Below are positions 2,359-32,813 of a stretch of DNA of 32,813 bases, piece after piece; positions within the stretch are counted from its first letter, which is position 1, and each line of letters starts with the position of its first letter. The stretch spans positions 1-32,813 of the forward strand of contig CASDRY010000146.1 of NCBI GenBank assembly GCA_949283235.1, in the 5' to 3' direction. The translations under genes were made by a program, and so were the position numbers. This DNA comes from an uncultured Spirochaetales bacterium. Its GTDB lineage: Bacteria > Spirochaetota > Spirochaetia > Sphaerochaetales > Sphaerochaetaceae. The notes under the pieces are model-generated. The model searched no databases, was not told the origin of the DNA, and worked only from the letters and a program-made list of their open reading frames with translations.

Positions 2359-3801
2359 ATCACTGTAACCAATTGCAATTTTGTACTTGACAGCTTCGGA
2401 CAAATAAAACTTGCTGACAACAATGTTAACGATATAACTGAAGATTTATTTGAAAAGAATTTTGACATATCCATAACAGATGCTGACGATGTTTTTGCAT
2501 CATCCTTTGCAGCTATTTTTAAACTCTACTATACAAGGATGGATGACAATAGATATCATGAATTTCTAAATAAGGAATATGGCAAATCCTATGCTGTATT
2601 ACGTGAGGATGAGTTCGAAAAGAAATATGGACCCCGCCCTTGGGAATTGATAAATACTATGTTGTCAAATGCTCGCCTTCCGTATCAGGTAAACAATCCT
2701 GAAGGGCAATCAAGGGAATCAGATTTCCATCTTTTCCTTATCGATAAATCTAAAAACATACAAATCCAGGTCAATGATTTATCGACTGGCGAAAAAGTTC
2801 TTATGTCTCTTGCCTTGGCTATATATAATGTTTCCGAAAGCGAGACAAAACCAGATATTCTGCTACTGGATGAACCAGACGCATCATTGCATCCTGAGTA
2901 TTCAAAAGTATTAATTAACGCAATTAGAGAATCCATAGTCCAGTCTGCAGGTGTAAAAACAATTATAACAACACATAATCCTACAACGGTAGCACTTGCA
3001 AATGAAAGCGAAATTTATCAAATGGATAAAGAGCTTGGATATCCTATAAAAATCTCTAAAGAGAATGCCCTGAATTTCCTTACGAAGGATTTAGATAATC
3101 TGAGAGTCTCTGTAGAAAACCGGAGACAAGTTTTTGTAGAGAGTAGTAACGATGTAAGTTATTATGAGAAGGTCTTCAGACTACTTGATACAGAATTTTC
3201 TACACGTCCTGTTTTTCTCGCGCCTCATAATAGGGATGGGGCAAACTGTGAAGATGTGGTTAGTATTGTAAATAAACTCAGATCTTTGGGAAATAATCTG
3301 GTATATGGTCTTATTGATTTTGATAATAAAAACAAAGATTCTGCTTATGTATATGTACTTGGAACCAATCAACGCTATGCAATAGACAATTACATTTTCG
3401 ACCCTATATTTGTAGCATTTCTGTTGATTAGAGAAGGAATCATCAAGACAGTCGAGATTGGGATTGGTACATACTCATTCTCCAACTTGCGAAGTTTACA
3501 CACCAATGAATTGCAGAGTCTAATTGATTATATCTCGATTCAATTAGATTTATTTTCAGCTAATAAAGTTATTTGCCAGACACATAAAGGTCAAGAATAT
3601 CAACTAAGCAAAGAATATCTTGAAATCTATGGACATGACTTGGAAACGAGAATAATGAACAAATGGCCAGCCTTAAACAAGGTGAAAGGGGGGAAACAAC
3701 AAGAAAACATCATGAAGAATTTTGTTCTTGATCGGGTTATTAGTGAATATCCGGAATTTCTCTCAATCGACTTTGTTAACACATTAAATAAGATTGTATG
3801 A
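2359..3801 (+). pseudogene. AAA ATPase with TOPRIM-like (OLD/DUF4435-type) nuclease domain, C-terminal fragment
   Basis: The frame is open from 2359 (after a stop at 2356-2358) to the TGA at 3799-3801; the first ATG is at 2539 and lacks a convincing ribosome site. It continues the ATPase begun at 357. Visible motifs are the ABC-like signature NDLSTGEKVLMSLALA, Walker B DILLLDEPDASLHPEY and the H-loop TTHNPTTVALA. A C-terminal domain follows with VFVESSNDVSYYEKVFRLL (Glu plus Asp of a TOPRIM fold), YGLIDFDNKN (the DxD) and YAIDNYIFDP. The last two resemble the DUF4435/OLD type. This ATPase-plus-TOPRIM combination is known from OLD nucleases and from PARIS, where AriA and AriB are sometimes fused. 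Membership of PARIS specifically is an inference. The neighbours (BrxA, DUF1016, restriction enzyme) support a phage-defence role. The C-terminal half is itself undamaged, which suggests the insertion is recent. Confidence 0.8.
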
Positions 3802-12194: not shown

Positions 12195-13316
12195 ATGAGA
12201 AGTGAGACGAGAAAGGAAAGACGCTTGATACTCTCCATAGATGGCGGAGGAATGAGGGGAATCATCCCCAGCTGGATACTTTCCCGCATCAATGAGGAGT
12301 TGAGAAAAAAGGGAGACAAACGTCCACTCTACTCACACTTCGATCTCATTGCAGGAACAAGCACCGGTGCCTTGATAGCATCTGCCATGTCAATCCCAAC
12401 AGAAGGAACCGCTTTTCCCAAAGAGGACGCAGAAGAATACGCGGTTTACTCGGAGAAAACCGAGAGGAAATTCTTCTTCAGGAAGATAATCAGGGAATAC
12501 AAAGGAAAAGTTATACCATCTGCAGACCCTTCTGCTTTCACTGATTTTTACATCAAGAATGGTCCTAAGATCTTTCCTCAGAAAAGCGTCGGAGCAATCA
12601 TCGGACCGCTTTTCACAGATAAATACAGCGGTTCGGAGTATGAACGATTTTTGAAAGAGCTTTATGGAGAAAGGACGATGGGAGAATTGCTTGTTCCAAC
12701 ATTGTTGCTAACATATTCTTCCAATAACGGTATTTTATTTCCTATAACAAGCTGGAATACCCCAGATATCAAAATATGGGAAGGCACACGAGCCAGCTCT
12801 GCCGCTCCTCTTTACTTCCCGCCATTCACAAAAACATATAATGAAAGGAAACACCAGTTTATAGACGGAGGAGTGGCCGCTAACAATCCATCGCTCATTG
12901 CCTATTCACTAGGAAGAGAACTCTATAAGAATGCAGATGAGTTCTATATTCTAAGTTTATCAACAGGGGCTCCTGTCTACAAAACCCATGATCAGGGGCT
13001 TGGCGGCATAACAGGCTGGGGAAAGGAGATATCCAAAATCTTCCAGAACGCGGAACTCCAGCTTGCGGACACAGTACTTCCCTCCATTCCGGGAGTGCAT
13101 TACACCAGAATCTGGTCTCCAGTCCTCGAAAGGAAGATAAAGCTCGATGAAACAGGAAGAGATACCATGAACACGCTTATAGCCGCCGCTGAAAGAATCT
13201 ATGATGACAACAAAGATGCAATGGGAAGCTGGATAGATATGCTCTCCTCAACTCCTGTCTCAGATGCGGTAAAACTCAGAAACGAGCAAGAATCTCATCA
13301 ACCTTTGCTGTCATAG
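12195..13316 (+). CDS. patatin-like phospholipase
   Basis: This 373-residue protein has a full patatin domain: oxyanion loop SIDGGGMRGIIP (14-25), nucleophile elbow GTSTG (54-58, Ser56), and catalytic Asp224 in FIDGGVAANNPS. No signal peptide is visible, so it is probably cytosolic. It should hydrolyse phospholipid or acylglycerol esters. Patatins of this type also occur as effectors (CapV) of CBASS defence, but no cyclic-nucleotide synthase or other CBASS gene is next to it. The start ATG lacks a ribosome site, and an upstream -10 is not convincing. The last 41 bases overlap the convergent MTA/SAH nucleosidase gene. Confidence 0.92.
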   Translation: MRSETRKERRLILSIDGGGMRGIIPSWILSRINEELRKKGDKRPLYSHFDLIAGTSTGALIASAMSIPTEGTAFPKEDAEEYAVYSEKTERKFFFRKIIREYKGKVIPSADPSAFTDFYIKNGPKIFPQKSVGAIIGPLFTDKYSGSEYERFLKELYGERTMGELLVPTLLLTYSSNNGILFPITSWNTPDIKIWEGTRASSAAPLYFPPFTKTYNERKHQFIDGGVAANNPSLIAYSLGRELYKNADEFYILSLSTGAPVYKTHDQGLGGITGWGKEISKIFQNAELQLADTVLPSIPGVHYTRIWSPVLERKIKLDETGRDTMNTLIAAAERIYDDNKDAMGSWIDMLSSTPVSDAVKLRNEQESHQPLLS

Positions 13317-13833
13317 TCTCTCTCATCGCGCGGAGATTATATCCATAGCTGCCAAGACTGATTCGTTCTCCAACGATATCTGTAATGACCTTAACAGCAA
13401 AACATGGAATCCTCTTCAGATAGCAAGCAAGAGCAACTCCATAGGCTTCCATATCAGTGGCATCGGATGATTCATCTTTTACAGAAGCAAAACTCCCAGA
13501 AGATGAAAGGATGTACTCTGAAGTGCTATCCAATGCAATCGATGAAATTGTGGCCCTTGAAGGAAGGAGGGTTGCTCCAAGAGGAAGATGAAAAGCAGTG
13601 AGATTGCTATCGGGAGTGATCACACGCGAAAAAGACACCACATCTCCTAGTTTAAGCTTCCCCATACTGCCAGCGCTCCCGACAGAGAAGACTATATCAG
13701 GGTCATGCTCAGCTATCGCATAAGCAGAAGACGCTGCGGCTAGCACAGGTCCTACCCCTGACACCACTTTGATATACTCATCTGAAAACGGCTTCAATTC
13801 AGCTTTGTCTGAAGCTACAAGAAGAACTTTCAA
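13276..13833 (-). CDS. 5'-methylthioadenosine/S-adenosylhomocysteine nucleosidase-like protein
   Basis: The protein is 185 residues, short for the family (usually about 230). Landmarks are VVSGVGPVLAAASSAYAI (23-40), FSVGSAGSMGKLKLGDVV (49-66), and the substrate-binding motif SDATDMEAYGVALAC (123-137) with the family Glu at 129. VKVITDIVGE follows, with Asp152 in the place of the catalytic acid. It would cleave adenine from methylthioadenosine or SAH, or act on another purine nucleoside. The TTG start is supported by AAGGAG six bases upstream and by a four-base TTGA overlap with the stop of the pyridoxal kinase gene, which implies translational coupling. It is the last gene of the hexokinase unit. 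Substrate specificity is not certain. Confidence 0.82.
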   Translation of the reverse strand: MKVLLVASDKAELKPFSDEYIKVVSGVGPVLAAASSAYAIAEHDPDIVFSVGSAGSMGKLKLGDVVSFSRVITPDSNLTAFHLPLGATLLPSRATISSIALDSTSEYILSSSGSFASVKDESSDATDMEAYGVALACYLKRIPCFAVKVITDIVGERISLGSYGYNLRAMRETMTAKVDEILARF

Positions 13834-14648
13834 AGCATTCTCCTTCTTATCTCATCCATAACAGGGGAAAGTGCTATTCCTAGTCTTCTTTTCCTTCCCT
13901 TCATCTTTGCATCCAGAACTGCGTTTGTTGAAATAGAAGTGGCATGTCCGACTGAACCGAAGAAGCTACCGCCTTTTACGACAAGAGCGAAAAGAAGCGA
14001 GGCGAACAAATCCCCTGAGCCAGGGTAAGATACGCCAAGATCATCATACTGGAATAGCCTGATCTCATCTCCATCCCAAGCTGCATTTCCAAGCCCTCCA
14101 GCTTCAAGAGGTATTCCTGTTATAACACCACGCTTAGGCCCTAAAGAACGGAGAACAGTAATCTGATCTTTTATAGCTCGAGGTCCCTGCTTTTTAAAGC
14201 CATCATCAAGACCTGTGAGAATCATAGCCTCTGTGAAATTCGGTGTTATGATATCAGCATGCTTTACAAGAGTTATCATCTCACTGCATAGCTCATCGCT
14301 TACAGTCTGATACAGCTCACCATTATCTCCCATCACGGGATCGACAAGAAGGAAAGAAGAGAAGGCTGATGCAGCATACTTTACAGTCTCTATCTCCTCT
14401 GCAGAGCCAAGGAAGCCGGAATAAACACCATCGAATCTGAGTTCAAGGCGCTTGAAATGATCAAGTATCTTCCTCATCGCCTCATGCTCATCCTGAACGA
14501 AAATCCCATCAAACCCATCTGTCTGCGTAGATAAAAGCGCTGTCGGAAGCACAGCAGTCTCCACCCCAAGCGCTTCCAGCACGGGAAGCACTACAGTGAG
14601 GGAAGACTTTGAATAACATGAAAGATCATGTACAGCGAGAACAGCCAT
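13830..14648 (-). CDS. pdxY: pyridoxal/pyridoxamine kinase (ribokinase-fold)
   Basis: The 272-residue product is of the PdxK/PdxY type: MAVLAVHDLSCYSKSSLTVV at the N-terminus, LPTALLSTQTDGF, DGVYSGFLGS, LLVDPVMGDNGELYQ (the phosphate and Mg-binding DPVMGD) and ITPNFTEAMILTG. The ATP/catalytic loop YPGSGDLFAS carries the catalytic Asp. It phosphorylates pyridoxal or pyridoxamine in vitamin B6 salvage. It overlaps the hexokinase stop by one base (TGATG) and the next gene by four, so the three are co-translated. No other B6 genes are present, as expected for a salvage organism. The symbol is assigned on family resemblance; pdxK would be equally fair. Confidence 0.88.
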   Translation of the reverse strand: MAVLAVHDLSCYSKSSLTVVLPVLEALGVETAVLPTALLSTQTDGFDGIFVQDEHEAMRKILDHFKRLELRFDGVYSGFLGSAEEIETVKYAASAFSSFLLVDPVMGDNGELYQTVSDELCSEMITLVKHADIITPNFTEAMILTGLDDGFKKQGPRAIKDQITVLRSLGPKRGVITGIPLEAGGLGNAAWDGDEIRLFQYDDLGVSYPGSGDLFASLLFALVVKGGSFFGSVGHATSISTNAVLDAKMKGRKRRLGIALSPVMDEIRRRML

Positions 14649-15940
14649 CAGATAGCAAGACCTGCAATCGCGGCTCCAAGAGTCGGAGAATTCTCAATGT
14701 TCACAATCTCATAGTATCTTCCATGTTTCTTCTCAAGAAGCTCATCAAGATACAAGCGTGTATAGAACTCAAGGAATGCTGTCTTATAGAAAGTAGTTCC
14801 ATCAGCGTTGATCACAACAGGAAGACGTGGCTCGGCGCCTGCATCGGAGCGAAGGACAGCAGCCGTGAGATTTATAGCAGTAAGTTTTCCAGCCCTCTCG
14901 ATTATGCTTTTTATAATCTTATAAAGCGCTGTAGCATCCTCTTCATTGTCACCAACAGCCTTGACAAGATCATAATCATTGTTGTGGCAATCCTCCAGAT
15001 AATGACTCATTCTTGTTGTATCAAGAGGAAGATAGGCTTCAAAACGCTCTCCAAACGCTTTTGTAAGAACGCCTTCCTTAACTGCAGCTTTTATTACATG
15101 CTCAGCAAATGGCCCAAGATATGCTCCGCTTATCTTCTTCTCAAACCAGTACTTACCAGGATCTTTAGTACCGCTTACAAACTCCTTATCCAGATCTCCC
15201 AGTTCAATAGCAAGACAGCCAGACTCAACATTTATGATTTCCCTGCCATCACTGAGGGAAATCTTTCCTATCCTGTCATTTCTCTCTGTGTATGCTGTAT
15301 TCGTCCCTGTACCGAGAATGAATCCGATATATGAGGAAGCGTAATCAGGACGGGCGGCTTTTGCGGCAAGAAGCGTTGCTACAGTATCATTGACGACAGC
15401 AACTTTCTTTCCGGAAACATCATGCCCACGACGCTTCAGCTCTGCAAGAAGATTCTTTCCAAGAGGTTTTCCTATAACCTCAGGAGCTTTGATCTCCTTT
15501 GAGAATACAATTGGAATACCATCATGATCCTCTGTAATCTTGGCAGCATATGAGAAGCAGAATCCGATTCTATCGCTCTTATCGATAAGACGCTCAATAT
15601 TGTCTGCAAGAATCGAATAGAACTCAGCAGCACTGACCTCTTCCTTGACACCAGGCATTCCCACTTTCCTGAAATCAGAGATGACAGGATGCTTGTTCTC
15701 ATCAAATGTCACAAGGCATGTACGGAAATTCGTTCCACCCGCATCCATTACGATAACGCTCTTTCCGGGGACTATCTCAGCATCAGGCGAGACGTAGGTC
15801 GGTATCATCTGCAGAGAACTTGAATCCTCAACAGCCAGGCCCTTCTCCATCTCTGAGAGAATAAAAGAAAGCGTCTTCTCCTCATCCACTGCAGATGAGG
15901 AAATCATATGTCTCTCGAGAAACTCCTCAGTTTTTCCCAT
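14648..15940 (-). CDS. hexokinase
   Basis: The product is 430 residues from the second of two tandem ATGs, chosen because AGGAGG sits only two bases before the first ATG but five before the second. It is a eukaryote-like, spirochaete-type hexokinase. It has the phosphate-1 motif VMDAGGTNFRTCLV (about 65-78), the sugar-binding/catalytic region KKVAVVNDTVATLLAAKAA with the catalytic Asp, GFILGTGTNTAY (phosphate 2) and NADGTTFYKT plus NIENSPTLGAAIAGL at the C-terminus (adenosine region). It phosphorylates glucose or another hexose with ATP to start glycolysis. It lies nine bases after the secreted-protein gene and is probably transcribed from the promoter at 16609-16637. All expected motifs are intact. 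Confidence 0.93.
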   Translation of the reverse strand: MGKTEEFLERHMISSSAVDEEKTLSFILSEMEKGLAVEDSSSLQMIPTYVSPDAEIVPGKSVIVMDAGGTNFRTCLVTFDENKHPVISDFRKVGMPGVKEEVSAAEFYSILADNIERLIDKSDRIGFCFSYAAKITEDHDGIPIVFSKEIKAPEVIGKPLGKNLLAELKRRGHDVSGKKVAVVNDTVATLLAAKAARPDYASSYIGFILGTGTNTAYTERNDRIGKISLSDGREIINVESGCLAIELGDLDKEFVSGTKDPGKYWFEKKISGAYLGPFAEHVIKAAVKEGVLTKAFGERFEAYLPLDTTRMSHYLEDCHNNDYDLVKAVGDNEEDATALYKIIKSIIERAGKLTAINLTAAVLRSDAGAEPRLPVVINADGTTFYKTAFLEFYTRLYLDELLEKKHGRYYEIVNIENSPTLGAAIAGLAI

Positions 15941-15949
15941 CATATCCTC

Positions 15950-25356: not shown

Positions 25357-26988
25357 TCACTCCTCAAGTATTCTGAGAATTTCAGGTAGGAGCTGTTTCT
25401 TCCTTGAAAGCACTCCAGGCAAGGAATATGTATTTTCATCAATCTTCTCATAGATAAGATGAGAACATCTCTCAAATGGTGTTGTAAGAAGGATGGAATT
25501 TCCCTTTATGACATCTGAAATGAGAAGCATGCACCAGTCCAGTGCCTTCTCCTCCCTAACCTTCTCAAGTTCCTCAAGGTATCTTGTTTTGATATCAGGA
25601 ACTTCCATAAGCGACATCACCTCAACCTGCCCTATAGCGAATCTCACGCCCTTCTCCGTGTATGATTTCATATCACTGAGAATAACGCGCTCAGGATCGC
25701 GTTCAGCAAGTGAGGTGCCATCTGAGAATAAGGATCTCCCGAATTCCTCATAATCCCCAATACCGCTTATCTCACATAGCCGTCTTGCCACATGCTCATC
25801 GTAGCTTGTGGTTGTCGGGCTTTTCAGGATAACAGTATCAGCGGTGAGGCCAGAAAGAAGGACCCTAGCTGTAAGAGGATCTATCTCGACTCCCCATTTC
25901 TTGAACTGCTCATATATGATAGTACAGGTAGATCCCAAAGGCTCTGAGACGATGTAAATAGGTGTCCTCATGCGGGGAGGAGCCAGTCGATGATGATCGA
26001 GAATCTCTGAAATCTCAGCATCCTCTATACCCTGAACGCTCTGCTCAGCTTCATTGTGATCTACAAGAATAAGACGCTGCTTGGGTTTATCAAGAAAGCA
26101 GCGGCGTGTGACGAATCCCGTCCATTCACCTTTATCAAAGACGGAAAGACCTCTGTAACCACTCTCCTGAAGCTTCTTCTTGGCATCATCGAAGAGCATG
26201 GAGGCTTCTATGTTCATCTCCGGATCCTCTTCCGGAATGATATCAGAGACAGGAGTGGAGAGCTTCAAAAGACGAAGCGTCTCTGCTGTATCAAGATATG
26301 ATAAATAAACAAAACCCTTGAACGAAGAGAAATCTATATCCATCCTTGAAGGATCTGACACACCTGTAATGACAATACCAGGAAGCTGGTTTTCTATCGC
26401 TGCAAGAATATGCTTCTTTCTGTATCCAATGACAAGCACAGGTTTATCTACAAGACGCTCTAAGCGTGAAAGATATACCTGATACTCCATCGCCCCTATC
26501 ATATAAGGAGCTCTTATCTCAACTGCATTTCCTCGCTTAAGATACTCCCCTTCGATTACCCTCTCGATATTCTCCTCCGAAAGAAGATACCTCTGCCTTA
26601 TAACCCCGCTGTTCTCTCTCAGGAAAAATCCATTGATATCATCAGCTGTGAGGAGACCTTTATAGACACCATCATCGATTACAGGGACAACAGAAGGTCT
26701 TCGCCTCTGGAAGATATCCATCAAAAGGTAGAGAGGGTCTGAGGAGGAGATTGTATTTACAGGTTTTCTCTGCACCTCCTTGACCCGTGGTCTTACATCC
26801 CTTAGAAACTGAGGAAGCTCTATTCCCATCCTTGCAAATGCATTTTTCGTATTCCCATTTGCAGGCCCTAGCATTACTGGTATATATTCATTGCTGCTAT
26901 CTATCTTGTTCTTCAGCACTGCATAGGAGTACGCGGCGCATACAGAATCCATATCTGGATTTCTATGTCCTGTGATATATATTCTCAT
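25357..26988 (-). CDS. ppaC: family II manganese-dependent inorganic pyrophosphatase with CBS and DRTGG domains
   Basis: The 543-residue protein starts with the DHH-phosphoesterase motif ITGHRNPDMDSVCAAYSYAV (His8, Asp12, Asp14 bind Mn). The catalytic domain is then interrupted by regulatory inserts: CBS 1 at about 75-125 (PSVVPVIDDGVYKGLLTADD), a DRTGG domain at about 130-230, and CBS 2 at about 245-300. It resumes with LILVDHNEAEQS (Asp310, His311) and EILDHHRLAPP (DHH at 331-333), and ends with the DHHA2 domain. CBS-type PPases hydrolyse pyrophosphate and are controlled by adenine nucleotides, and the DRTGG-containing form also by diadenosine polyphosphates. TACCAT ends exactly six bases before the ATG and no ribosome site is present. 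It is divergent from rpiB. Confidence 0.94.
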   Translation of the reverse strand: MRIYITGHRNPDMDSVCAAYSYAVLKNKIDSSNEYIPVMLGPANGNTKNAFARMGIELPQFLRDVRPRVKEVQRKPVNTISSSDPLYLLMDIFQRRRPSVVPVIDDGVYKGLLTADDINGFFLRENSGVIRQRYLLSEENIERVIEGEYLKRGNAVEIRAPYMIGAMEYQVYLSRLERLVDKPVLVIGYRKKHILAAIENQLPGIVITGVSDPSRMDIDFSSFKGFVYLSYLDTAETLRLLKLSTPVSDIIPEEDPEMNIEASMLFDDAKKKLQESGYRGLSVFDKGEWTGFVTRRCFLDKPKQRLILVDHNEAEQSVQGIEDAEISEILDHHRLAPPRMRTPIYIVSEPLGSTCTIIYEQFKKWGVEIDPLTARVLLSGLTADTVILKSPTTTSYDEHVARRLCEISGIGDYEEFGRSLFSDGTSLAERDPERVILSDMKSYTEKGVRFAIGQVEVMSLMEVPDIKTRYLEELEKVREEKALDWCMLLISDVIKGNSILLTTPFERCSHLIYEKIDENTYSLPGVLSRKKQLLPEILRILEE

Positions 26989-27032: not shown

Positions 27033-27473
27033 ATGAAAGTCGTAATTGCCAATGATCATGGCGGAGTTGAACTTGCCAAGGTTATAATGAAGCATCTCGA
27101 TGAAAGAGGAATAGAATACAGCTATCTGGGAACCAGTACCGAAGAGAGTGTCGATTACCCAGATTACGCTGAAATGGCTGTGAATGAGTATAGGAAAGGC
27201 GGTTATGATTTCGGTATTCTCATCTGCGGAACTGGCATCGGAATCTCGATATCAGCAAACAAGATGAATGGAATAAGATGCGCTTTGCCGCAGAACTCCT
27301 ACTCCGCTGAAATGACCAAAAGGCATAACAATGCCAATTTCATCGCATTTGGAGGAAGGGTTGAGTATCCGGAACCTGTCGAGAAAATCCTTGATGCCTA
27401 TATCGATGCCTCATTCGAGGGAGGACGCCATCAGAAGAGAATCGATAAGATGATGGCGCTTCAGGGAAAGTAA
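27033..27473 (+). CDS. rpiB: ribose 5-phosphate isomerase B
   Basis: The 146-residue RpiB/LacA-fold enzyme has IANDHGGVELAKVI at the N-terminus (substrate and phosphate contact), DYPDYAEMAV, and the catalytic loop ILICGTGIGISISANK with the catalytic Cys. It then has IRCALPQNSYSAEMTKRHNN and FIAFGGR. It interconverts ribose 5-phosphate and ribulose 5-phosphate in the pentose phosphate pathway, feeding nucleotide synthesis. AAGGAG precedes the ATG at good spacing. It is divergent from the pyrophosphatase gene with only 44 bases between starts, and its stop abuts that of the convergent exported-protein gene. Confidence 0.95.
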   Translation: MKVVIANDHGGVELAKVIMKHLDERGIEYSYLGTSTEESVDYPDYAEMAVNEYRKGGYDFGILICGTGIGISISANKMNGIRCALPQNSYSAEMTKRHNNANFIAFGGRVEYPEPVEKILDAYIDASFEGGRHQKRIDKMMALQGK

Positions 27474-27998
27474 TCAGAAGGAGTAATCCCTCCATGTTCC
27501 TCTGAGATAGTAATCTATCGAAATGAGGGAGAATGTCACGACAACCTCATTGTTCACGGCATCGTATCCTATTCCTGTCTTTAAAATTCTTTCCCTTCTT
27601 CCCGAGACAGGAGAGCCTACAGAAAGCGGAGTAATGGATATAATAGGTCCAGCTCCGTTATTATCTAGGCGGTAGAATCCACCTATAGATACAAGAGTAT
27701 TGAGTCCACTTCCAGCTACTTTCGAAGCTGTGGAGCGGTCTCCAAGAAGGGCGAAGGTAAGATCGAGACCGAACATATTCGACTGGAATGGCATAGGAAC
27801 AAGCTCTGAAATACCCCAGAGATTCATCTCGAGCCTGGATGTAAGCCCGACATTAAAGCCATAGGTGAAACTGATTCCCTTCTCCGGCCACTTATATGAG
27901 GCTTGTCCGAATGAGAGGGAAACATCGAAGTAATCTGCAGCCATAACTGGCTGTAAGAGTGCAATGAAAAGAAATAATGCAATGAAAACCTTCTTCAT
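27474..27998 (-). CDS. small exported, probably beta-barrel protein
   Basis: The start is taken at the ATG at 27998 (174 residues) because AGGGGGC precedes it and a clean signal peptide follows: MKKVFIALFLFIALLQPVMA, cleaved before ADYF. The mature part alternates polar and aromatic residues (YFDVSLSFGQASYKWPEKGI, VNNEVVVTFSLISIDYYLRG) and ends in Phe, as many outer-membrane barrel proteins do. No named domain is recognised. It is the last gene of a five-gene unit, eight bases after a similar exported protein, and the two may be paralogous or function together. Its role is unknown. Confidence 0.7.
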   Translation of the reverse strand: MKKVFIALFLFIALLQPVMAADYFDVSLSFGQASYKWPEKGISFTYGFNVGLTSRLEMNLWGISELVPMPFQSNMFGLDLTFALLGDRSTASKVAGSGLNTLVSIGGFYRLDNNGAGPIISITPLSVGSPVSGRRERILKTGIGYDAVNNEVVVTFSLISIDYYLRGTWRDYSF

Positions 27999-28006
27999 GC
28001 CGCCCC

Positions 28007-28501
28007 CTAGAAGAAATATGAGAATCTCATTACATACATACCCCAGCCCCACTTTTCAGATGTGAATGAGTATATGGCATATGGTGAAAGGAACTCATAT
28101 ACAAAATGAGTATCCTGAAAAGTGAATGGAGCGATACCGAATAGTAAGCTCCAGTCATTTTTCAATCTGTACTGAGCCCCTGCCATCAGCGTTGGTGCCC
28201 ACAGAACCTGATTACTGAATATCCAAGGAAATGGATGATCAAGAAGAATAAAGAGAGGTGTCGATACATTCATCTTCACCCCTTCAAAGAATGGAGTGAC
28301 TGGGGACAAATCAACAGATACCGAGATATCTCCAGCATGAAGCTCTTTCGAAGGAGAGAAGATAGCAGAGATAGTCAATCCTCCGTAATTGCCTGTCGCT
28401 GTCATAGCTCCAACAGGCGCAAGCGAGTATCCGAAAGAAGGAGCAGCAAAGAGTGAAAAGGATGCTAGAAGCAATAGAAATGCAATGAAAAGCTTTCTCA
28501 T
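28007..28501 (-). CDS. small exported, probably beta-barrel protein
   Basis: The 164-residue protein has a signal peptide MRKLFIAFLLLLASFSLFAA and a mature sequence of short amphipathic strands (YGGLTISAIFSPSKELHAGD, VLWAPTLMAGAQYRLKNDWS). It ends RFSYFF with a terminal Phe. The pattern suggests a small outer-membrane barrel or porin-like protein; no family can be named. GGAGG precedes the ATG. It begins one base after the phospholipase-D lipoprotein gene and ends eight bases before the next exported-protein gene, so it is co-transcribed with both. Confidence 0.72.
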   Translation of the reverse strand: MRKLFIAFLLLLASFSLFAAPSFGYSLAPVGAMTATGNYGGLTISAIFSPSKELHAGDISVSVDLSPVTPFFEGVKMNVSTPLFILLDHPFPWIFSNQVLWAPTLMAGAQYRLKNDWSLLFGIAPFTFQDTHFVYEFLSPYAIYSFTSEKWGWGMYVMRFSYFF

Positions 28502-28502
28502 C

Positions 28503-29759
28503 TCAGCCTCCTACCAGCATAAAAAGATATGCGAGAGGATTTCCCTCTTCATCCTTCAGCTTTGCAGCATCTTCAAGTGTTATATGCTCAGATATCCTGG
28601 CAATCTCCTCAGCATGCTTTTTCAGTAAAGCCGCAAGCTCAGGACTATCGATTACAAGCGCAAGTTCCTCTGAGAGCGACATGGAGCGGAAATTGAAATT
28701 CGAGGAACCTATCACAACATATCTGGAATCAACAATCATAAGCTTCTCATGAAGAAGAGGAAGGATTTCCCCATTCTCATCACTTATAGAGAGGTAGATA
28801 TCACAACCTGTGGATTCCATCAGATCCGGCAGTTCCTGAAAAATTCCGCTAGCGGCATAGCCTCTGAGATCAACAGGCATTATCATGGTGACATCAACGC
28901 CTCTATCGGTAGCGGCCCTGAGAGCGCTTTTCATGTTCTTATCGAGAGCTGGAAGATATGGGAAGACAAGAATCTCATCTTCCGCACTGCCAATTAGGGC
29001 TGAATACATCGAGGAGATATACTCCGTAGAGACAAGATAAGCTGGATACTCTCCACTCCCATCTGGATAAACCCTGAAATCCTCGGTGGAGATTTTCTCA
29101 ACACTTACTTCATTCCAGATATCGACAAACTCATCCATCAAAGCAGAAGCCAATGACGGAGATGAGAAAAGATACATGCTATCCCGCTGAGTCTCCCCTT
29201 CCCCTGCTCCAAGCGAGATGTAATTCATATTCATTCCACCGACAGCTGCAGTCTTTCCATCCACCACGACAAGCTTTCTGTGGTCTCTTATGACTATCGT
29301 TGCAGGATTGAAAAGATGTGTTACTGTCAGAGGGTTGTATTCAGCAAGATGAACACCACTCTGTCTCAGGAAGTAGAGAGGCGTCATGTAATTCTTCGAT
29401 TCGGTCATATCAAAGGATGAAATCCCATCCATTACGAAGTAGACCCTAACACCTCTTTCTGCCGCATTCATCAATGCTCCATACATCTCCTCCAAACGAG
29501 GTGCATTGGAACCAAGAAATGTGGAGAGGAGAATATAATCCTCTGCTTCATTGAAAAGCACTGTAAGCCTATCCAGCCATTCGCTTCCATCGAAATAGAC
29601 TTCAGGAAATGGTACTGAAATACTTACAGCATCTATAGATTCAAGCTTCTCCTCAAAAGAAGCAGCAGGGTTCTGCAATTCAGGTGAAATGAATGCTTCG
29701 GTACTGCTGCAGGAGATGAGAAGAAGTAGTGCTAAAAGCAATAAAAGCAAACGGCGCAT
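28503..29759 (-). CDS. phospholipase-D-fold lipoprotein
   Basis: The 418-residue protein has a signal MRRLLLLLLALLLLISC with lipobox Cys17, so it is lipid-anchored outside the cytoplasm. It has two PLD catalytic (HKD) motifs: RDHRKLVVVDGKTAAVGGMN (His160, Lys162, Asp167) and LHEKLMIVDSRYVVIGSSN (His337, Lys339, Asp344). This is the two-motif layout of cardiolipin synthases and some phosphodiesterases. Cardiolipin synthases usually have membrane helices; here the enzyme is tethered by lipid instead. Extracellular phospholipase, transphosphatidylase or nuclease activity are all possible. The start lies one base after the stop of the HAD-deaminase gene (TGAGATG), indicating translational coupling. 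Confidence 0.9.
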   Translation of the reverse strand: MRRLLLLLLALLLLISCSSTEAFISPELQNPAASFEEKLESIDAVSISVPFPEVYFDGSEWLDRLTVLFNEAEDYILLSTFLGSNAPRLEEMYGALMNAAERGVRVYFVMDGISSFDMTESKNYMTPLYFLRQSGVHLAEYNPLTVTHLFNPATIVIRDHRKLVVVDGKTAAVGGMNMNYISLGAGEGETQRDSMYLFSSPSLASALMDEFVDIWNEVSVEKISTEDFRVYPDGSGEYPAYLVSTEYISSMYSALIGSAEDEILVFPYLPALDKNMKSALRAATDRGVDVTMIMPVDLRGYAASGIFQELPDLMESTGCDIYLSISDENGEILPLLHEKLMIVDSRYVVIGSSNFNFRSMSLSEELALVIDSPELAALLKKHAEEIARISEHITLEDAAKLKDEEGNPLAYLFMLVGG

Positions 29760-29760
29760 C

Positions 29761-30906
29761 TCATCGCATTGTAGGGAAAATGAAAGGCATCGGCAATAGT
29801 TCCTTGAAGGTATATCGCACCGGTTCAGTGCGAGGTGTCACAAGGATAATCTCAGTGTCAGATGCCGCAAACTCAGCTATCACCTGAAGGCAAACCGCAC
29901 ATGGCGGGGCTGGCGGATCATCATCTGAATATACTACCAGGATATCAATACCGATTGCCCCTTCTGCGGCAATTGCGGTGGTTATAGCATTACGCTCCGC
30001 GCATATTGTCGCCCCATAGGAGGAATTCTCAACATTGCATCCAGGATATATTCTGCCAGTAGCTGCAGATACAACAGCCGCACCTACCTTGAAATGAGAG
30101 TATGGAGCATATCCATTCTCCCAGGTCTTTCTCGCAGCTTCTATCGCGCGCTTTTCGGTAAATGATCGAGGCATCTTTCTCTCAAGGGGTCTTATCAGAT
30201 TAGCCCCATACCTTACTGCATCTGTACCTGCAAACACATCAAAAAGCAGCGCCTCAAGCTCTCCAGGTGTTGAGAACTCCTGAATTGCTGAAAGATCAGA
30301 GATAACGGAATCAGCACCCGCCGCTTCTGCAGCAGCACCATCAATGGTTGTCATCATTGAAACGACTCGGCATCCAGCTCTCTTTCCGCTCTCAATTCCT
30401 CCAGTCGTATCCTCAAAAACGACAGATACATCGGAAGATACACCAAGCTTAATCATGGCAAGCTCATAGATATCCTTCTCCGGCTTATTCCTCTTGATAT
30501 CCTCTCCAGAAGCTATGAAATCGAAATCAGCCTTCTCAAGACCGATTCCTTCTATATTTGTCTCAACCTTCCAGCGAGGTGCAGATGAGCATAATGCAGT
30601 AAGAATTCCAGCTTTCTTTGCTCTTTTGACGAAATCAGCACCAGGAAGCGCTATATTCCTATCTCCTATAATCTCCTCATAGCGCCTCTTGAAGAAAGCT
30701 GAAGCCTCATCATAGGAATAGGAAACGCCAAGATTCTCAGCAGCTTTATCGAAGAAAAGCCTCTCACCACAGCCAAGAGCATTCGAGAAAGTATCCCTTG
30801 TCGCATTTACTCCAATCGTTTTGAAGTATTCGATTCCCACCTGGATGGAGATATCCTCAGAATCTGCAAGCACTCCATCCATATCAAAGAGAAGGGCTTC
30901 TATCAT
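29761..30906 (-). CDS. fusion of HAD-family phosphatase and cytidine deaminase
   Basis: The protein is 381 residues. Residues 1 to about 210 form a HAD hydrolase of the beta-phosphoglucomutase/nucleotidase type: FDMDGVLADSE (Asp8, Asp10), CSSAPRWKV (motif II Ser), KRNKPEKDIY (Lys141) and VFEDTTGG (Glu165, Asp166). Residues about 245-381 form a homotetrameric-type cytidine deaminase: YAPYSHFKVGAAVV, NVENSSYGATICAERNA (Cys302 and Glu304) and PPCAVCLQV (Cys336, Cys339), ending FKELLPMPF. All catalytic and zinc residues are present in both halves. A HAD nucleotidase followed by a deaminase could turn CMP or dCMP into uridine in two steps, but the HAD substrate is only inferred. It overlaps the dihydropyrimidinase stop by four bases (ATGA), with GAGGG as ribosome site. 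Confidence 0.93.
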   Translation of the reverse strand: MIEALLFDMDGVLADSEDISIQVGIEYFKTIGVNATRDTFSNALGCGERLFFDKAAENLGVSYSYDEASAFFKRRYEEIIGDRNIALPGADFVKRAKKAGILTALCSSAPRWKVETNIEGIGLEKADFDFIASGEDIKRNKPEKDIYELAMIKLGVSSDVSVVFEDTTGGIESGKRAGCRVVSMMTTIDGAAAEAAGADSVISDLSAIQEFSTPGELEALLFDVFAGTDAVRYGANLIRPLERKMPRSFTEKRAIEAARKTWENGYAPYSHFKVGAAVVSAATGRIYPGCNVENSSYGATICAERNAITTAIAAEGAIGIDILVVYSDDDPPAPPCAVCLQVIAEFAASDTEIILVTPRTEPVRYTFKELLPMPFIFPTMR

Positions 30907-32270
30907 CTCTTAGCCCTCAGGAATTTGCCATCTCCACTGAGGCCAAGGTAGATATTATCTCCCATAATCAGACGCCCACGAAGATAAGTCATCACAACCT
31001 TTCCTGTCACATTAAAGCCCTCGAATGCTGAATACCCCGCTGCAGAGTGAATTGTATCCTTGCTTATTGTCCAGCTGTAATCAGGATCAAATAGCGTGAT
31101 ATCAGCATCGGTACCGACTTCTAGGGAACCCTTTTCAGGATAGAGACCAAATATCTTCGCCGGTCCTGTCGAAAGAAGATTAACAATCTGTGACATCGAG
31201 AGCCTTCCACCTGTCATTCCAAAGGTATGAATCAAAGGAAGCATCTCCTCTGTCCCCGGGATTCCAGGATAGATTGTTCTGCAATCGTCGGAAGAAAGCT
31301 TCTGCTCCCTTGTGAAAGAACAATGATCAGTAGCTACTACCTGTATCTCTCCATTAACAAGCGCTTCCTGAAGCGCTTCATTATCTTCCTCATCACGAAG
31401 AGGTGGTGTCATAACATACAAAGGACCATCATCACCATTCAGCTTTTCTTTAGTCAGGAACAAGTAGTGAGGAGTTGTCTCGACAATAACCTGCACCCCT
31501 TCCATTCTAAGTTTTCTTACACTCTCCAGCCCCTTCTTTGATGAGAGGTGGACAATATAGACTGGCATATCGAGTTCCTTGGCAATTCCGCCAACATACT
31601 CAATAGCAGCAGCCTCAGCCTCTGCAGGACGAAGCGAAGCATGATCTATAGGCTTATATGTACCCTTCCATGAAGAGGCAATCTCTGTAACGATCTTGTC
31701 GTCTTCACAATGGACAGAGACCATTAAACCAAGCTCTTTCGCATCCTTGAAGATTGTCTTAAGCTCCTCCCTATCATCGACAAGGTAGCCAACATCCTTA
31801 TAAGTCGTGAATATCTTAAGAGTACCTATTCCTGCGCGCTTTATAGACTCAAGTTCCTTTTTGATATCATCACGATACTTGTAGACTCCCTGATGAAGAG
31901 CATAGTCTATAGCCATCGGAACCATTTCCTTTCTTCTATGATGAAGAGAATCCAGTAATGAAACTTTGTTATCATCAGCGAAATCAACAACAGTGGTGAC
32001 TCCACCAAATGCAGCAAGTCTGGAACCTTCAACGAAGGAATCTGCTGTAACTGTTCCCCTCGATACCAGATGATAATGCGTATGTGCATCTATCAAGCCA
32101 GGGAGCACACAAAGCCCATCCGCCCTGACAACTGTGGTATCTGCAGGAAGCGTAGAGTAATCAATCGATGGGGCAACTCTCTTAATCTTGGATCCAGAGA
32201 TAAGAATGTCATAGTGCCTCATCCATTCTGTATCAACAACAAGTCCGTTCTTAATCAATATGCTGCTCAT
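30903..32270 (-). CDS. dihydropyrimidinase / hydantoinase-type cyclic amidohydrolase
   Basis: The 455-residue protein belongs to the D-hydantoinase/dihydropyrimidinase branch of the amidohydrolase superfamily. Metal ligands are visible: His63 and His65 (LIDAHTHYH), the carbamylated Lys152 (GTLKIFTTYK), His187 (VSVHCED), His241 (YIVHLSS) and Asp315 (ATDHCSF). HYLFLTKEKL and VMTPPLRDEEDN are also typical. It opens dihydrouracil, dihydrothymine or hydantoin rings; allantoinase is a less likely alternative. It leads a five-gene unit with the HAD-deaminase fusion, which supports pyrimidine breakdown. TATTCT ends six bases before the ATG with TTGCTT 17 bases further upstream, and there is no ribosome site. 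Confidence 0.93.
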   Translation of the reverse strand: MSSILIKNGLVVDTEWMRHYDILISGSKIKRVAPSIDYSTLPADTTVVRADGLCVLPGLIDAHTHYHLVSRGTVTADSFVEGSRLAAFGGVTTVVDFADDNKVSLLDSLHHRRKEMVPMAIDYALHQGVYKYRDDIKKELESIKRAGIGTLKIFTTYKDVGYLVDDREELKTIFKDAKELGLMVSVHCEDDKIVTEIASSWKGTYKPIDHASLRPAEAEAAAIEYVGGIAKELDMPVYIVHLSSKKGLESVRKLRMEGVQVIVETTPHYLFLTKEKLNGDDGPLYVMTPPLRDEEDNEALQEALVNGEIQVVATDHCSFTREQKLSSDDCRTIYPGIPGTEEMLPLIHTFGMTGGRLSMSQIVNLLSTGPAKIFGLYPEKGSLEVGTDADITLFDPDYSWTISKDTIHSAAGYSAFEGFNVTGKVVMTYLRGRLIMGDNIYLGLSGDGKFLRAKR

Positions 32271-32276
32271 ATAACA

Positions 32277-32305
32277 AGAATACTACTTCAAACAAAACCA
32301 AGCAA
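32277..32305 (-). promoter_or_regulatory. promoter of the dihydropyrimidinase unit
   Basis: On the minus strand, TTGCTT (32300-32305), a 17-base spacer and TATTCT (32277-32282) precede the ATG at 32270 by six bases. A transcript starting at the usual distance would begin at or next to the start codon. Confidence 0.55.
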
Positions 32306-32310
32306 AACAA

Positions 32311-32343
32311 ATTGAAACAACAAAGGCCCGGTTTCCCGAGCCT
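32311..32343 (-). terminator. rho-independent terminator of the right-edge gene
   Basis: On the minus strand, AGGCTCGG, loop GAAA and CCGGGCCT form an 8-bp stem (one G-T pair), covering 32324-32343, followed by TTGTTGTTT. It lies 27 bases after the stop codon of the beta-helix-like gene and before the promoter of the dihydropyrimidinase unit. Confidence 0.8.
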
Positions 32344-32348
32344 CCTGC

Positions 32349-32369: not shown

Positions 32370-32813
32370 TCATTCTTTAACTGTCAATTTTCCACCAAAG
32401 GTATCTGCTCTCTGATCAGATGAGAGATACCAGACCTGATCGGCTTTATCAGCATGTGTATATGCTGTTAATGCTTTTGCATTGTCAGTAATAGAAGTTG
32501 TCTTAGTCGATACTTCATCTCTCCATGCAGCAGGTACAGTTTCATCTCCACAAGTAAGTTTTGTACCTTCAGCTATCGTGAGATTACTTGTTCCATCTGC
32601 ATCACCTACACTAACCTCGATTCCTCCAAATGCATTTCCACCTACAGCAATATCACCTTCAATCGAAACATCAGAGTTTCCAACAAGAATACCAGCATTG
32701 CAACTTGTAACACTGATATCTTTCAACGTTACAGCAGTAGAACCATAGACCTTTATTCCATACTCGCCACTATGCCAGTTAACATCACCAGCCTCATCTG
32801 GATCATCCCAAGC
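32370..32813 (-). CDS. C-terminal part of a beta-helix-like, repetitive surface protein
   Basis: The minus strand is open from the window edge to a TGA at 32370-32372, giving 147 residues of a longer protein. The sequence has the regular short-strand pattern of a right-handed parallel beta-helix: YGIKVYGSTAVTLKDISV, AGILVGNSDVSIEGDIAV and GGIEVSVGDADGTSNLTIAE, rich in Gly, Val, Ile, Asp and Asn. After the helix comes a non-repetitive tail ending YLSSDQRADTFGGKLTVKE. Such proteins are often secreted adhesins or polysaccharide-binding surface proteins; no catalytic motif is visible in this part. The N-terminus lies outside the window, so a signal peptide cannot be checked. Confidence 0.7.
   Translation of the reverse strand, partial: AWDDPDEAGDVNWHSGEYGIKVYGSTAVTLKDISVTSCNAGILVGNSDVSIEGDIAVGGNAFGGIEVSVGDADGTSNLTIAEGTKLTCGDETVPAAWRDEVSTKTTSITDNAKALTAYTHADKADQVWYLSSDQRADTFGGKLTVKE

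Follow-up and report, generated by a model that had tools for sequence, protein, structure and literature searches.

A five-gene operon in the Sphaerochaetaceae

Contig CASDRY010000146.1 (C146) of assembly GCA_949283235.1 belongs to the metagenome-assembled genome of an uncultured spirochaete of the family Sphaerochaetaceae (2.2 Mb, 85% complete), and the stretch analysed here, referred to as the window, covers its positions 1 to 32,813. Towards the end of the window five intact open reading frames (ORFs) lie on the minus strand, spanning 32270-27474. They encode, in the order of reading, a cyclic amidohydrolase of the D-hydantoinase/dihydropyrimidinase family, a fusion of a haloacid dehalogenase-type (HAD) phosphatase and a cytidine deaminase (CDA), a lipoprotein of the phospholipase D (PLD) superfamily and two exported beta-barrel proteins, OMP1 and OMP2 (Table 1). 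The ORF coordinates bear out the co-directional arrangement and the spacings of -4, +1, +1 and +8 bases given in a preliminary description of the locus, and its gene families were borne out by profile scores, the lipobox and the barrel models. The end at 32305 given there includes 35 bases of leader beyond the first gene. For OMP2, a mechanical ORF listing begins at GTG 28052, while ATG 27998 is preferred here because it lies 8 bases past the previous stop, follows a G-rich leader and yields a signal peptide. A promoter scan at the unit gave scores no better than those of shuffled sequences.

These five genes form a real operon with a family-wide distribution. The complete order of hydantoinase, HAD-CDA, PLD, OMP and OMP was found in 45 genomes beyond the source genome, 30 of them in the same genus and 15 in six further genera of this family (g29, g33, g34, g116, g117 and g122; in g117 the hydantoinase of the block is cut by the end of a contig), so that the synteny, which the preliminary description had proposed to check in relatives, is kept. 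Next to the unit, rpiB, the pyrophosphatase gene and relA are frequently kept in place among relatives too, and in L049-L051, L054 and L059 the five genes persist as a block despite different flanks. Because the order is kept across genera and survives where the flanks differ, the unit is more than a chance arrangement. Stop/start overlaps recur among the relatives (-4, -1, +1) and point to translational coupling. The genus includes Candidatus Ornithospirochaeta stercorigallinarum, since the hydantoinase tree places the locus of that organism (L120) with the congeners. No description of the five-gene combination was found in the papers searched, which represent a limited open-access literature, and with the same limited coverage nothing relevant was retrieved on Sphaerochaeta with cytidine deaminase, PLD or a HAD-CDA fusion. 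The protein families are known ones, yet gut and environmental spirochaetes of an entire family carry them in the same fixed combination.

Table 1. Genes of the five-gene unit and adjoining features in the window
Feature	Position	Strand	Remarks
Cyclic amidohydrolase, D-hydantoinase/dihydropyrimidinase family	30903..32270	-	455 aa; intact di-metal site
HAD-cytidine deaminase fusion	29761..30906	-	381 aa; beta-PGM/CbbY-like HAD (~1-210) and tetrameric-type CDA (~250-376)
PLD-superfamily lipoprotein, two HKD motifs	28503..29759	-	418 aa; signal peptide ending LLISC
OMP1, exported 8-stranded beta-barrel protein (predicted)	28007..28501	-	164 aa; AlphaFold2 model
OMP2, exported 8-stranded beta-barrel protein (predicted)	27474..27998	-	174 aa; AlphaFold2 model
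rpiB, ribose-5-phosphate isomerase B	27033..27473	+	convergent conserved neighbour, not co-transcribed
CBS-DRTGG-DHH manganese-dependent inorganic pyrophosphatase	25357..26988	-	conserved neighbour past rpiB
Terminator-like stem between the unit and the upstream beta-helix gene	32322..32345	-	GC-rich stem of 10 pairs (6 of them G-C) with a T-rich tail; matched to a consensus only

The fusion and the amidohydrolase

The fusion combines a HAD_2 domain with a cytidine deaminase (TIGR01354, 127.3 bits, cut-off 113.65). Compared with TIGR01354 deaminases and beta-PGM/CbbY-type HAD phosphatases, both domains are full-length and have intact active sites, here joined in one chain. Across 25 aligned orthologues the residues D8, D10, S107, K141, E165 and D166, which make up the DxDG, Ser/Thr, Lys and acidic motifs of a HAD subfamily I phosphatase, are invariant, as are the deaminase residues C302, E304, C336 and C339 of the CAE and PCxxC motifs. 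A first search among relatives had suggested a fusion confined to one genus; this was rejected by a family-wide search, in which the fusion recurred in most genera of the family and only separate genes were seen outside it. The protein is probably a pyrimidine-nucleoside salvage enzyme, judging from its domains: its phosphatase half would act on a sugar phosphate or a pyrimidine (deoxy)nucleotide, and its deaminase half would convert cytidine or deoxycytidine to the uridine form, after which uridine phosphorylase and RpiB could recover the base and the ribose. Such salvage is plausible because a uridine phosphorylase is encoded in the genome, outside the unit (333.6 bits, cut-off 280.3), and rpiB lies next door.

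The amidohydrolase had been proposed to act on reduced pyrimidine rings. Reductive pyrimidine catabolism, with a dihydropyrimidine dehydrogenase (DPD; PreTA or PydA), a dihydropyrimidinase and a beta-ureidopropionase, shares with the window an enzyme of the dihydropyrimidinase family, but relatives possessing the pathway encode it at another locus and with another dihydropyrimidinase, while no DPD and no carbamoylase over cut-off was found in the source genome. In particular, PreA did not exceed its cut-off in the source genome or in 13 congeners of at least 93% completeness; among 91 genomes of the family it did so in 14, all of them outside the genus of the window. A DPD elsewhere in the genome, which the preliminary description had suggested to look for, was likewise not found at this level of completeness (85%), the sole long DHO_dh protein being a PyrD-PyrK fusion next to PyrF in a pyr operon. 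A carbamoylase-family amidase (TIGR01879) was not found over cut-off in the source genome or the sampled congeners; the source genome does encode a nitrilase-family protein. The PreA clusters of G343, G328 and G303 hold their own dihydropyrimidinase and carbamoylase, and two of these genomes (G343 and G328) also encode the window-type enzyme elsewhere, adjoining the fusion. The PreA-linked paralogue shares 35-36% identity with the window enzyme, and the PreA-linked dihydropyrimidinases constitute a separate, fully supported clade in a tree with long branches and a midpoint root. Window-type hydantoinases were never located beside PreA as defined in the neighbourhood comparison. Hence the enzyme stands apart from the dihydropyrimidinases of those relatives, and what it acts on in this organism is probably something other than the compound that a DPD would yield. 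As uridine phosphorylase is present and DPD was not found, uracil and ribose are more likely to be recovered than the ring is to be degraded. Caution is due before this hydantoinase is annotated as the dihydropyrimidinase of a uracil-degrading pathway.

The window enzyme scored 408.6 bits against the dihydropyrimidinase/D-hydantoinase model TIGR02033 (cut-off 393.25), with an orthologue from another genus narrowly below the cut-off at 392.5 bits. It belongs to the same fold family as the D-hydantoinase 1nfg and the dihydropyrimidinase of Pseudomonas aeruginosa, which supplied the reference positions for metal ligands and substrate contacts (PMC8860565). All six metal ligands are kept (H63, H65, K152, H187, H241 and D315) and Y157 matches the substrate-binding Tyr155. 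In contrast to the P. aeruginosa enzyme, the contacts Ser289 and Asn337 are replaced by Thr288 and Pro335, and dynamic loop I is rewritten (YHLVSRG); these features are fixed in at least 95% of 65 window-type sequences. On sequence grounds, the window enzyme is a distinct subfamily of cyclic amidohydrolase. HyuA from the reductive uric acid pathway of Escherichia coli is an amidohydrolase of the same family in an anaerobe (PMC12507026), but a HyuA-type role in purine degradation was rejected given 34% identity and a differing pocket, where HyuA keeps the letters PNG and SPP and the window enzyme does not; uricolytic genes are also absent beside the window enzyme. A role as dihydroorotase in de novo synthesis was rejected too, with PyrD-PyrK and PyrF encoded in the genome and PyrE together with a separate PyrC in the pyr operon of a congener.

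In 26 loci from several genera glyA or gcvPB is located directly upstream of the window-type hydantoinase, a neighbour that the window itself lacks. Loci with gcvPA-gcvPB/glyA upstream include L213:1371-4174, L212, L214-L217, L219, L222, L233 and L272, and glyA precedes the hydantoinase in L044, L046, L057-L059, L218, L223, L265, L266 and L271. This adjacency hints at glycine or one-carbon metabolism.

The PLD lipoprotein and the two barrels

The PLD lipoprotein matched PLDc_2 twice and carries the lipobox LLISC and the HKD motifs HRKLVVVD and HEKLMIVD; two HxKx4D motifs were present in all 71 of 71 full-length relatives. Its best profile was the cardiolipin synthase (Cls) model TIGR04265 at 107.7 bits, well short of the cut-off of 290, and the PLD-type nuclease NucT gave 31.9 bits against a cut-off of 297. 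Weak matches in the PDB included a phospholipase and the Nuc endonuclease alike. With the cardiolipin synthase/PLD superfamily it shares a pair of HKD motifs as well as a second motif like that of Cls (GSSNFNFRS), but unlike Cls the protein is a predicted secreted lipoprotein without the N-terminal membrane helices. An outer phosphodiesterase releasing nucleotides, as proposed in the preliminary description, agrees poorly with scores that are highest for cardiolipin synthase models and not for PLD nucleases, and phospholipid is favoured here as the putative substrate. A role as the sole cardiolipin synthase was rejected, a 525-aa Cls being encoded on contig C49 (334 bits, cut-off 290). In G002 the PLD lipoprotein gene is tandemly duplicated (L056:6437-8948), and in G005, G030, G012 and G021 second PLD copies adjoin a gene of 286-291 aa.

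OMP1 had no family match and OMP2 only a weak one to OMP_b-brl. AlphaFold2 nevertheless modelled both as 8-stranded barrels, with a mean predicted local distance difference test score (pLDDT) of 93 for OMP1 and 83 for OMP2, so that each is predicted to combine a signal peptide with a closed barrel. Foldseek matches were marginal and VIA-align gave clear ones: the OprF barrel 4rlc aligned to OMP1 with Z 15.2 and a root-mean-square deviation of 2.3 over 120 residues, and to OMP2 with Z 16.1 and 2.2 over 124. Both models were closest to the barrels of OprF, NspA, OmpA, OmpW and PagL, with Z about 13-16. The predicted fold is thus shared with OmpA/OprF/OmpW/PagL-type barrels, from which the two proteins differ in that no sequence family was found for them and in that, in complete trios, they occur as a pair adjoining a PLD lipoprotein. 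OMP2 is the better conserved of the two, and 25 of the 27 genomes sampled from the family outside this genus have it. The lumen of 8-stranded OmpA/OprF-type barrels is normally filled, and the pore is usually too narrow for nucleotides. The idea that these proteins admit nucleotides is therefore not upheld by the models, and anchors or partners of the PLD protein would be a more fitting role for two dedicated barrels.

Two modules, rival explanations and surroundings of the unit

The trio and the enzymes also occur apart from each other, so a single route leading from the exterior into the cell need not be assumed. In G060, G237 and G303, PLD, OMP1 and OMP2 form a trio that lacks the enzymes, and the fusion is encoded on a different contig, adjacent to rpiB or close to it. 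The trio likewise lacks the enzymes in G038 and G106, members of other families of the class (the G106 contig is only 4.5 kb). Conversely, the enzymes lack the trio in G343, G328, G347, G342 and G026. In two species of genus g29 the HAD half is absent from the locus and the deaminase is present (L209, L234), and in G029 and G172, of the window's own genus, the fusion is gone from the locus while the other four genes stay. In G029 a 1.2-kb gap lies between hydantoinase and PLD, and a separate cytidine deaminase gene is found elsewhere (L096:6234-6656, L091:4692-5891). L121 and G037 have HAD and CDA as two adjacent genes next to rpiB, with the pyrophosphatase following in L121, and in G051 the two are separate as well; rpiB adjoins HAD/CDA genes even without the rest of the unit (L121, L264, L268, L269). 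A likely history would be that HAD and CDA lay beside rpiB, were fused in the family ancestor, and were later parted from rpiB by the arrival of the trio.

The explanation that we consider best, and with fair probability correct, is a family-wide operon of two modules with separate histories, one of cytosolic salvage and amidohydrolase enzymes and the other an outer-membrane trio acting on phospholipid. The substrates, the membrane location and the salvage role are those we infer from sequence and models. In the cytosolic module the HAD-CDA enzyme would feed nucleoside salvage, with a metal-dependent amidohydrolase of the D-hydantoinase family sitting beside it that is linked to glyA/gcvP in many relatives. 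In the outer-membrane module the two-HKD lipoprotein would most likely hydrolyse or transphosphatidylate phospholipid. A bolder proposal, which we regard as doubtful although worth stating, is that the trio is a new phospholipid-processing machine of the spirochaete outer membrane, occurring in three or more families of the class, and that in Sphaerochaeta-type bacteria it has come under one promoter with glycine/pyrimidine enzymes, coupling the regulation of envelope lipid turnover to that of nucleotide salvage. The trio offers in any case a genetically defined entry to lipid handling in the spirochaete outer membrane, and the fusion and the divergent hydantoinase by glyA/gcvP pose substrate questions testable in cultured Sphaerochaeta.

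Several observations weigh against the two-module explanation and its separation from reductive catabolism. At 85% completeness the genome does not establish that this strain lacks DPD, and a PreA-like gene is present elsewhere in the congener G012 (L105); sub-threshold PreA-like genes occur in G007, G016 and G021 (L104, L106, L113), and the PreA trait is patchy rather than absent in the genus. Since Ser289 and Asn337 contact the substrate through the main chain (PMC8860565), their replacement need not alter the substrate, and the solved D-hydantoinase 1nfg likewise has Thr at the Ser289 position. In G059 the window-type hydantoinase overlaps a DHO_dh-Fer4 gene, resembling a DPD pairing. Finally, most of the family keeps the two modules side by side, and a functional link between them could be the reason. 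As to the G059 locus itself (L098:6998-9471), the DHO_dh-Fer4 protein is 362 aa long and xylulokinase and dehydrogenase genes lie upstream, possibly indicating a different pathway for the subfamily.

The preliminary description had combined the five proteins into one scavenging pathway in which PLD frees nucleotides outside, the barrels admit them, HAD-CDA processes them and the amidohydrolase opens reduced rings. What stands of it is the conserved unit, the invariant HAD and CDA sites and a plausible salvage, and the tight spacing, the family-wide co-conservation and an amidohydrolase score above the dihydropyrimidinase cut-off all agree with it. However, the modules are split in several genera and families, DPD was not found and DPD-bearing genomes use another dihydropyrimidinase, and the barrels are 8-stranded and the PLD scores cardiolipin-synthase-like. 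The single chain of import and degradation is not supported by these findings; uptake and breakdown of pyrimidines probably do not form one pathway here, and we hold the integrated version to be improbable. A different and rather unlikely explanation is that gene order has been kept although the genes are not functionally coupled, an outer-membrane trio having been inserted beside housekeeping genes (glyA/gcvP, amidohydrolase, HAD-CDA, rpiB and pyrophosphatase) and sharing no more than their promoter. The conserved positions of rpiB, pyrophosphatase and relA and the independent occurrence of the modules would be expected from this, but not the persistence of the five genes amid different flanks, and the recurring overlaps of -4 to +1 favour selected co-expression.

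Other explanations concern the amidohydrolase in particular. A function in glycine or one-carbon metabolism, for example conversion of hydantoin or a related ring to N-carbamoylglycine, would explain the nearby glyA and gcvPA-gcvPB and suits the altered substrate pocket as well as the direct adjacency in 26 loci; yet adjacency by itself shows no pathway and the hydantoinase/carbamoylase-family amidase did not exceed its cut-off in the genome or sampled congeners, which leaves this function with a low probability. Salvage or clean-up of modified pyrimidines, such as dihydrouridine from tRNA turnover, would have HAD remove the phosphate and the amidohydrolase open the free dihydrobase with no need for DPD. 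It is in keeping with the missing DPD, the uridine phosphorylase and the apparent presence of Dus-like proteins (short DHO_dh matches in frames of ~330 aa), but the pocket is unlike that of known dihydropyrimidinases, and we judge it very unlikely.

Among the relatives, G030 has about 12 similar-sized genes (179-210 aa) on the same strand upstream of the hydantoinase (L054:6979-14176), of which the one tested had no Pfam match, and runs resembling this array are also found in G005 (L055) and G012 (L094). Within the window, the C-terminal part of a beta-helix-like protein, truncated by the contig end, lies beyond the unit at 32370-32813 (-). A 185-aa protein of the phosphorylase superfamily (13276-13833, -) matched PF01048 at profile positions 47-232 only, and its gene adjoins a phosphomethylpyrimidine-kinase-like gene at 13830-14648 and, at 14648-15943, one of the hexokinase family (PF00349/PF03727). 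Near the start of the contig an IS110-type transposase (858-2207, +) is followed by an AAA-ATPase (2539-3801) with a weak DUF4435-like stretch.

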